From: an uncultured Chryseobacterium sp.
GTDB lineage: Bacteria; Bacteroidota; Bacteroidia; Flavobacteriales; Weeksellaceae
DNA length: 64,000 nucleotides
Assembly: GCA_913778505.1 (NCBI GenBank)
Contig: CAJYWD010000011.1
Coordinates: 1 to 64,000 of the forward strand
Direction of reading: 5' to 3'
Part shown: positions 27,161-55,215 of the stretch, piece after piece
Layout of the letters: every line of letters starts with the position of its first letter
Position numbering within the stretch: the first letter of the stretch is position 1
Made by a program: the position numbers and the translations under genes
The notes under the pieces: model-generated
What the model saw: the letters and a program-made list of their open reading frames with translations, nothing else
The model's database searches: none
What the model was told of the DNA's origin: nothing

Positions 27161-27196
27161 AAAAAAGGAAGCTCAATCAAGAAGCTTCCTTTTTTT
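27161..27196. terminator. Bidirectional terminator between murA and the NIL gene
   Basis: Stem AAAAAAGGAAGCT / AGCTTCCTTTTTT with flanking A and T runs works on both strands. The last codons and the stop codon of the minus-strand NIL gene lie inside this hairpin. Confidence 0.88.
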
Positions 27197-27485
27197 GTGT
27201 GATATCAATTTTACTGTTGACCAACTTATATTTTTTGAGGTAATGTTCCAGATCATCCATCGATATTTCATTGACCTTCAATTTCAATTGGATATTACCG
27301 AAATTATTACCATTAATGTATTCCAGATCAGCATTTAGGATTTTGTATGGAATACCAAACTGGCTGTAGATCGTATTCAGCAGGATATCAAAACGGATTT
27401 TACCATTCAGATGAATTTCCAGAATAATGTCTCTTTCCTTGCCGGTAAAGTATGTGGGCTTGCTCTTTTCGTTCGGGTAGATCAT
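27177..27485 (-). CDS. Stand-alone NIL domain protein
   Basis: 102 aa, essentially one NIL domain: an ACT-like ferredoxin fold otherwise found at the C-terminus of the methionine ABC transporter ATPase MetN, where it binds methionine. Matching segments are ILEIHLNGKIRFDILLNTIY, FGIPYKILNADLEYINGNNFGNI (quoted in part) and DDLEHYLKKYKL. It probably binds a small sulfur compound and acts as a sensor or accessory factor. It is the second gene of a two-gene operon, 3 bases after DUF4395, and its 3' end is built into the terminator. No MetN, MetI or MetQ gene is near. Confidence 0.75.
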   Translation of the reverse strand: MIYPNEKSKPTYFTGKERDIILEIHLNGKIRFDILLNTIYSQFGIPYKILNADLEYINGNNFGNIQLKLKVNEISMDDLEHYLKKYKLVNSKIDITQKKEAS

Positions 27486-27488
27486 ATT

Positions 27489-27929
27489 TTAATTTTTTGA
27501 ATGGTTAACGGTTCTGATAATTGGAATCACGAGGAAATTGTAAATATAGCATCCTATACAAATGCGGAAAACGCTTTCTAAAGACGCCAGCAGAATCAGG
27601 AAAATTCCCAGATAAATCCCCAATGCATCATCATAATTAATAGCGATAAGTAGAGATAGCAAAGCACCAAGCGATGCAGCAAAACGTTTCGGCGCTGCAA
27701 AAACCGGTCTTTCTTCAAAGTGTAAGAAAACACTTAATTTCCTGGCAATATAATAAAGTGGCGAGACGAAAAGACCTGTGGTGCGGATCAGGAAATCCAA
27801 GACTACGAGAAACAGCAACCACTGTTGCTGAAAGTGAAGTCCGAAAATCGTGACGAGTACAACCTGATATGCTACAAAAGAAATAGCGCTGTCATCCACA
27901 TAAATATTCTTTGATCCCGTTTTTTCCAT
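27489..27929 (-). CDS. DUF4395 integral membrane protein
   Basis: 146 aa with about four hydrophobic segments (VAYQVVLVTIFGL, LLFLVVLDFLIRTT, LGALLSLLIAI, IFLILLASLESVF). The RPVFAAPKRFAASLG signature of DUF4395 is present. The biochemical role is unknown; relatives are often reported near rhodanese or thioredoxin-like genes, which hints at sulfur metabolism. It is the first structural gene behind a leader peptide and terminator (see the attenuator entry). Confidence 0.85.
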   Translation of the reverse strand: MEKTGSKNIYVDDSAISFVAYQVVLVTIFGLHFQQQWLLFLVVLDFLIRTTGLFVSPLYYIARKLSVFLHFEERPVFAAPKRFAASLGALLSLLIAINYDDALGIYLGIFLILLASLESVFRICIGCYIYNFLVIPIIRTVNHSKN

Positions 27930-27940
27930 AGTTGTTGATT

Positions 27941-27976
27941 AAAATTAAAAAGCTTCACCCGGTAAGGCGAAGCTTT
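27941..27976 (-). terminator. Leader terminator upstream of DUF4395
   Basis: On the minus strand AAAGCTTC pairs with GAAGCTTT, extended by inner GCC/GGU pairs, and is followed by TTTTTAATTTT. It ends only 12 bases before the DUF4395 start codon and about 215 bases past the previous gene's stop. It therefore serves the leader rather than the previous gene. Confidence 0.75.
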
Positions 27977-28000
27977 CACACACTCTCTCCTACCAAACAA

Positions 28001-28045
28001 TTACTTGGCGTGACACATTATGATATGAGGAAATATGCTGATCAT
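28001..28045 (-). CDS. 14-aa leader peptide ending Met-Cys-His-Ala-Lys
   Basis: ATG to TAA reading MISIFPHIIMCHAK, too short for the ORF track. It starts about 13 bases after an exact TAnnTTTG box and ends 25 bases before the leader terminator. A second in-frame ATG would give MCHAK alone. The lone Cys near the end is where a stalled ribosome would expose the antiterminator. I cannot show that it is translated. Confidence 0.45.
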   Translation of the reverse strand: MISIFPHIIMCHAK

Positions 28046-28057
28046 TTAATTCTGATA

Positions 28058-28065
28058 CAAATATA
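28058..28065 (-). promoter_or_regulatory. Candidate -7 box (TATATTTG) of the DUF4395-NIL operon
   Basis: Exact TAnnTTTG on the minus strand, placing the transcription start about 7 bases before the leader ORF. No good -33 TTG is visible. Confidence 0.5.
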
Positions 28066-28190
28066 TAAATTATTTAATTCCCACCTAATAAGTATGAATT
28101 AATTTTAATTTTTTTCACTTTCAGGGTGAAGATTATAGGTTTTAGGCAATAGCCTTACTGCTATGCTGTACCTGTCATCTGACAACTATC

Positions 28191-55093: not shown

Positions 55094-55215
55094 ACATCCC
55101 TAGCCCTGATGGGAACGGCATCCTTTTTTGCCGTGGCGCCAGTTGTTTCTATATTTTTGATCATGCCTTACGCCATGACAAAAAAGATATAGTGGACAGC
55201 AGGTTCCCGGCTCCT
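55094..55215. repeat. ~120-bp nested palindromic element inside the utilization locus
   Basis: Complementary blocks nest around one centre: AGCC/GGCT (55102, 55209), GGGAAC/GTTCCC (55111, 55203), ATC/GAT (55120, 55186), TTTTTTG/CAAAAAA (55124, 55179) and GTGGC/GCCAT (55133, 55172). The whole can fold into one long interrupted hairpin with a loop of about 34 nt. It lies between the GH144-like and esterase genes. I recall similar text from intergenic regions of related flavobacteria, unverified. Confidence 0.65.

Follow-up and report, generated by a model that had tools for sequence, protein, structure and literature searches.

A leader ORF with a single cysteine codon upstream of DUF4395-NIL in Epilithonimonas, a probable ribosome-mediated transcription attenuator

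Ribosome-mediated transcription attenuation of the trp type is textbook material for several amino acids. The trp, his, thr, ilv, leu and phe attenuators share a general plan: a short ORF follows the promoter and carries its regulatory codon near the stop, an intrinsic terminator lies downstream, an alternative antiterminator can be predicted, and the spacing is compatible with the footprint of a ribosome. The leader described here, found upstream of a DUF4395-NIL gene pair in a stretch of 64,000 nucleotides (the window), is like them in all of these features and differs in two. First, trp-type leaders have a run of regulatory codons, whereas this one has one Cys codon, which is unusual. Second, trp-type attenuators govern amino-acid operons, whereas the DUF4395-NIL pair is uncharacterised.

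Leader peptides with Cys codons are known from other bacteria. They were reported upstream of cys operons in mycobacteria and others, where no conserved terminator hairpin was seen (Seliverstov 2005; PMC1262725), ribosome occupancy has been recorded on the mycobacterial Cys leader peptides (Shell 2015; PMC4633059), and a later paper cites them as having been described as translational attenuators (Canestrari 2020, as cited in PMC13236596). These actinobacterial leaders resemble the present one in being short ORFs that lie ahead of sulfur genes and carry Cys codons close to the stop. They differ in having runs of Cys codons rather than one (in 20 of 21 leaders here) combined with a strong terminator, and they are unrelated in sequence and phylum to this Bacteroidota leader. 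Within Bacteroidota, leader-peptide attenuators have been inferred upstream of amino-acid biosynthesis operons in Flavobacterium psychrophilum (PMC9723704). These are alike in phylum and in transcription attenuation by a short peptide; the passage on them does not name cysteine. A further relevant system is the SAM riboswitch (RF00162), which the same promoter box precedes at sulfur genes of the genus and which is absent from this leader. A search of mostly open-access literature turned up no description of this cassette, nor of any cysteine attenuator equipped with an intrinsic terminator.

By mechanism, the leader apparently belongs with the ribosome-mediated attenuators; its amino acid would be a new one among those with an intrinsic terminator, and sensing by a single codon is unusual. 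It is likely to be a trp/his-type transcription attenuator in which one Cys codon serves as the sensor and which lies under a sulfur-regulon promoter. The first-pass annotation of this DNA had proposed the attenuator mechanism, and the anatomy supports it: the Cys codon is invariant, the terminator covaries and the footprint geometry fits. A larger claim is more tentative, namely that this is the first complete cysteine-specific intrinsic-terminator attenuator, with a single Cys codon, stacked under a sulfur operator and controlling an uncharacterised pair for sulfur or thiol transport or handling, and that a genome of another group (G134) holds an independent second lineage. If true, a single-codon cysteine sensor in Bacteroidota would widen the range of attenuation. 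It would also give a functional handle on DUF4395 and the lone NIL protein, since their regulation tells when they are needed.

Layout and distribution of the leader cassette

The elements follow one another on the minus strand as a palindrome, the TATATTTG promoter element (which we take to be a Bacteroidota-type -7 element), a 14-codon ORF, GGTAGG, an intrinsic terminator, DUF4395 and NIL (Table 1). This order is the one given by the first-pass annotation, and it is borne out at the same coordinates with one exception: the terminator had been placed 12 bases before the first gene, and its T-tract actually ends 17 nt before the DUF4395 start codon. CCTTACC, previously assigned to the terminator loop, takes in the end of the 5' arm as well as the loop. 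No Rfam covariance model matched in 27850-28150 at E values up to 1, so identity as a T-box or SAM riboswitch was dropped. A reading in which the hairpin terminates the C92 peptidase gene upstream was dropped as well, because a promoter and an ORF intervene. Elsewhere in the window, a Flavo-1 RNA lies on the plus strand at 55098-55210 (57.1 bits).

Table 1. Features of the leader and its operon, in window positions
Feature	Position	Strand	Remarks
Operator-like imperfect palindrome AATTCATACTTATTAGGTGGGAATT	28076-28100	minus	Overlaps the -33 region; near-invariant in all sampled orthologues
Core box ATACTWATTWGGT, within the palindrome		minus	Recurs at the cysH operon in the window's genome
-7 promoter element TATATTTG	28058-28065	minus	Direct sequence; TAnnTTTG-like counterpart in all orthologues
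Leader ORF MISIFPHIIMCHAK*	ATG 28045, TAA ending 28001	minus	14 codons, single Cys codon
Cys codon TGT	28015-28013	minus	Inside the leader ORF
Region 1 GCATATTTCCTC	28027-28038	minus	Within the leader ORF; can pair with region 2 part 27989-27978
Region 2, GGTAGG (27994-27989) plus GAGAGAGTGTGT	27978-27994	minus	Candidate antiterminator strand
Intrinsic terminator AAAGCTTCGCC-TTAC-CGGGTGAAGCTTTTT	27947-27976	minus	Regions 3 and 4
CCTTACC	27967-27961	minus	Loop plus end of the terminator 5' arm
DUF4395 membrane protein	27489-27929, start 27929	minus	C-x-G-C motif (CIGC); PF14340, 2.2e-21
Lone NIL-domain protein	27177-27485	minus	PF09383, 7.4e-8

The genus was taken as Epilithonimonas, whose members live in soil and water, judging by the closest named relatives in the public collection (Epilithonimonas species and strains labelled Chryseobacterium). 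All 21 DUF4395 loci compared within it, the window's included, carry the same cassette: palindrome, TAnnTTTG-like element, ORF of 14 or 15 codons, G-rich box and terminator. A covariance model built from 19 distinct leaders detected the cassette in 23 of the 24 genus genomes, with a single copy in each that always stands upstream of DUF4395, NIL or both; in the family's 176 other genomes it found none. This recurrence is not chance. The first-pass annotation had held that its reading would fall if orthologues lacked the leader ORF and the hairpin, and both are present wherever a genus genome still has the operon, whole or in part. Conservation, which it had suggested checking across Flavobacteriia, is genus-wide; beyond the genus, the 176 other family genomes show none.

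Two genomes outside the model's training set were nevertheless detected by it: in G002, DUF4395 is lost and the leader directly precedes NIL, and in G018, DUF4395 is lost and NIL interrupted while the leader is intact. A third, G014, is without leader, DUF4395 and NIL alike. These variants show that the leader accompanies NIL at least as closely as it does DUF4395. Across the whole class, DUF4395 occurs in 20 of 198 genomes, and this cassette is absent at the DUF4395 loci inspected there. In the sister genus g34 (Chryseobacterium-like), NIL stands alone at the syntenic site with a related palindrome and neither leader nor terminator. Together with the genus variants (loss of DUF4395, a broken NIL, absence of the operon), the leaderless g34 locus makes the step from promoter only to promoter plus attenuator traceable.

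Terminator, proposed antiterminator and ribosome position

The leader ORF has marks of being read by ribosomes. Its length before the stop is 42 nt in 18 leaders and 45 nt in three, whereas among the same 21 the stretch from stop to terminator shows each value between 27 and 31 nt. Length thus changes in frame within the ORF and freely in the spacer downstream, as it does when a reading frame is translated, and from this sequence pattern we infer that the ORF is translated. In the window, the folded region is more stable than its shuffles (z -2.87). Over the orthologues the terminator stem is paired in 100% of cells, and it covaries: two pairs have both sides changed in eight cells, and neither the covariation score nor this count was reached by any of 500 shuffles. 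The helix between regions 1 and 2, seen in the predicted folds and formed by leader GCATATTCTCTC with GAGAGAATATGT after the stop, is paired in 78.7% of cells over the orthologues, and a search for covariation in it across these orthologues gave nothing beyond shuffles.

The antiterminator is the less certain part of the structure. When the sequence from the edge of a Cys-positioned ribosome to the terminator loop was folded on its own, the GGTAGG-type box paired with terminator sequence (5' arm and loop) in 21 of 21 leaders. The partners seem, by their sequences, to change together: GGTGAG goes with CTTACC in one clade, and GGATAGG with CCTATTTC or CCTTTCC and GGGTAGG with TTTACCC in others. 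Cognate duplexes average -10.5 kcal/mol against -9.8 kcal/mol when permuted, a difference reached by 550 of 20000 permutations (p of about 0.03, uncorrected for relatedness), and region 2 compared with shuffled sequence has a mean z of -1.1 over 18 distinct leaders. In the window, the antiterminator pairing is no better than that of shuffled sequence (p 0.61). The GGTAGG:CCTTACC pairing put forward in the first-pass annotation therefore stands modestly above controls over all leaders but not in the window itself. An antiterminator of this kind is plausible and common to the leaders, but its statistical backing is modest, and the window is among the weaker copies. Equilibrium folding favours the terminator in most leaders even when a ribosome occupies Cys, and any switching would therefore have to be kinetic. 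Kinetic control is accepted for the known attenuators.

The position of the Cys codon, earlier said to fit ribosome stalling, agrees with that idea in all 21 leaders for an assumed footprint whose edge lies 16 nt downstream of the P-site codon's first base. The codon is always 12 nt before the stop, and box 2 (the GGTAGG-type box) begins 8-12 nt after the first stop base. With this assumed footprint, a Cys-stalled ribosome leaves a gap of 7-11 nt between its edge and box 2, and once at the stop the ribosome overlaps box 2 by 1-5 nt; the mean duplex energy weakens from -10.5 kcal/mol with the ribosome at Cys to -6.0 at the stop.

A scheme for the switch can be drawn from these parts. When sulfur is short, the promoter would fire (as the box common to cysH suggests), RNA polymerase would transcribe the leader, and a ribosome would start on the 14-codon ORF. 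If Cys-tRNA is plentiful, the ribosome would move on to the stop, its leading edge covering part of GGTAGG; region 1 could then pair with GAGAGAGTGTGT, the terminator would form and DUF4395-NIL would not be transcribed. If Cys-tRNA is short, the ribosome would wait with its A site at the Cys codon, masking about half of region 1. GGTAGG would then be free to pair with the 5' arm and loop of the terminator before the 3' arm is made, giving read-through. Stalling, termination and a cysteine signal at the leader are in this way what we infer from its layout.

The promoter box and the DUF4395-NIL pair in a sulfur context

The box at the core of the palindrome, written as [A/C/T]TACT[A/T]ATT[T/A]GGT, has three sites in the window's genome: the one here, one upstream of cysH and one intragenic. 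The second (contig C18, position 25285) stands before the first gene of a cysH-cysD-cysN operon, and the box also precedes cysH in G005 and G023. Other boxed genes in relatives are metY (G005) and a TonB-receptor gene (G019), each with a SAM riboswitch, and, again in G019, an aminotransferase-class acyltransferase gene adjoining the DUF4395-NIL operon. Judged against controls, each genome holds about as many sites as chance would give, and most of the remainder are intragenic; it is the placement of the sites and not their number that points to sulfur. The sulfur link is stronger than the one first proposed, the box being common to cysH and to SAM-riboswitch genes in relatives. In g34, the cysH operon has a related site with an Rrf2-family gene adjoining. 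The leader and operon are kept in G019 although neither cysH nor cysD was detected there.

Two loci show the box followed by the riboswitch (L180, 1500-1762, and L174, 1440-1800, before metY and the TonB-dependent receptor gene), an arrangement that is, by analogy, parallel to box followed by attenuator. At L181 1500-2794 (G019), the boxed acyltransferase gene, which is serine palmitoyltransferase-like, lies between the C92 peptidase gene and the DUF4395-NIL operon; in the window it is absent at this position. A guess is that its product possibly takes the first step of sulfonolipid synthesis. Two other patterns were tried and set aside. A strict palindrome pattern returned the window's site and chance-like sites only (it was the relaxed core box that gave the sulfur genes), and a symmetric core pattern matched a SusC/SusD-like pair in g34 (L147 and L148, palindrome kept, two genomes), which gives no sulfur evidence.

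Pfam confirms both genes, as PF14340 (DUF4395) and PF09383 (NIL). A CxxC motif is present in 27 of the 28 DUF4395 sequences inspected, and by sequence no solved structure was matched for either protein. In three loci of different genomes, tRNA-Cys lies directly upstream of DUF4395 on the same strand (L083 3911-3982, L085 and L098), and in other families the genes adjoining DUF4395 include cysteine-synthase-like, Rrf2 and peroxiredoxin genes, named by eye from their translations. In other organisms, NIL/ferredoxin proteins, which are larger than this NIL protein, act in homocysteine synthesis (PMC5764234). As a guess from this context, DUF4395-NIL is probably a pair for the acquisition or handling of sulfur or thiols.

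The leader peptide and the signal that it may sense

Across 17 distinct leader peptides, invariance is limited to Met1, Met10 and Cys11. Cys is encoded by TGT in 19 of 21 leaders and by TGC in two. The invariance of Met10, which equals that of Cys11, raises an alternative in which the attenuator is the same and responds to methionine, or to methionine and cysteine together, with the stall at Met10 or across Met-Cys. In several leaders Met-Met or Met-Met-Met precedes Cys, and NIL is the methionine-binding domain of MetN, to whose C-terminal domain the lone NIL protein shows a weak match. A stall 3 nt earlier also exposes the box, so geometry cannot choose between Met and Cys. Other observations weigh against methionine: Met codons other than Met1 and Met10 vary between leaders, the methionine-metabolism genes that carry the same box in this genus rely on SAM riboswitches, and the neighbours of DUF4395 in other families (tRNA-Cys and cysK-like genes) indicate cysteine. 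This alternative is unlikely.

The peptide might instead act through its own sequence, as TnaC and SpeFL do, with a nascent ...MCN.K stalling the ribosome on a ligand or a redox state. A conserved C-terminal sequence directly before the stop would suit such an arrest peptide, as would Ser6, which is nearly invariant (the window has Pro6 instead). The usual ending is MCN[S/P/T][K/N]; MCKSK, MCKTN and MCNTN occur among the leaders, the window itself has the exceptional MCHAK, and the stop is TAA in 11, TGA in seven and TAG in three of the 21 leaders. Since the last residues and the stop vary this freely, a codon sensor fits better than an arrest sequence, and the latter is improbable. The window's peptide ending is also poor as a search handle: MCHAK-stop occurs once in its genome, even with one mismatch tolerated, and CHAK-stop, used as an orthologue finder in 60 relatives, gave mostly unrelated loci because this ending is the exception.

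Least probable is a constitutive partial terminator behind a short translated ORF with the promoter box as sole regulator, as in the sister genus, for while the leaderless g34 locus and the weak antiterminator controls would suit it, some reason is needed for 21 leaders to keep Cys codon, frame and spacing exactly.

Beyond the genus, one further arrangement bears on a cysteine codon sensor of the kind preferred here. At L098 of G134 (reversed orientation, about 900-1480), two tandem Cys-rich ORFs, MNTNIHTYFNANQSSKMIWCCVPVAYHCIGSIG and MNTTFTHIMSTKPVHYFNNVAKVMCCCHVWMCGNYLCLN, are each followed by an intrinsic terminator, and both cassettes lie upstream of tRNA-Cys, DUF4395 and NIL. On this sequence evidence the tandem leaders are a possible second invention of such control. 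One of the small ORFs has five Cys, a number reached by 12 of 3000 shuffles.
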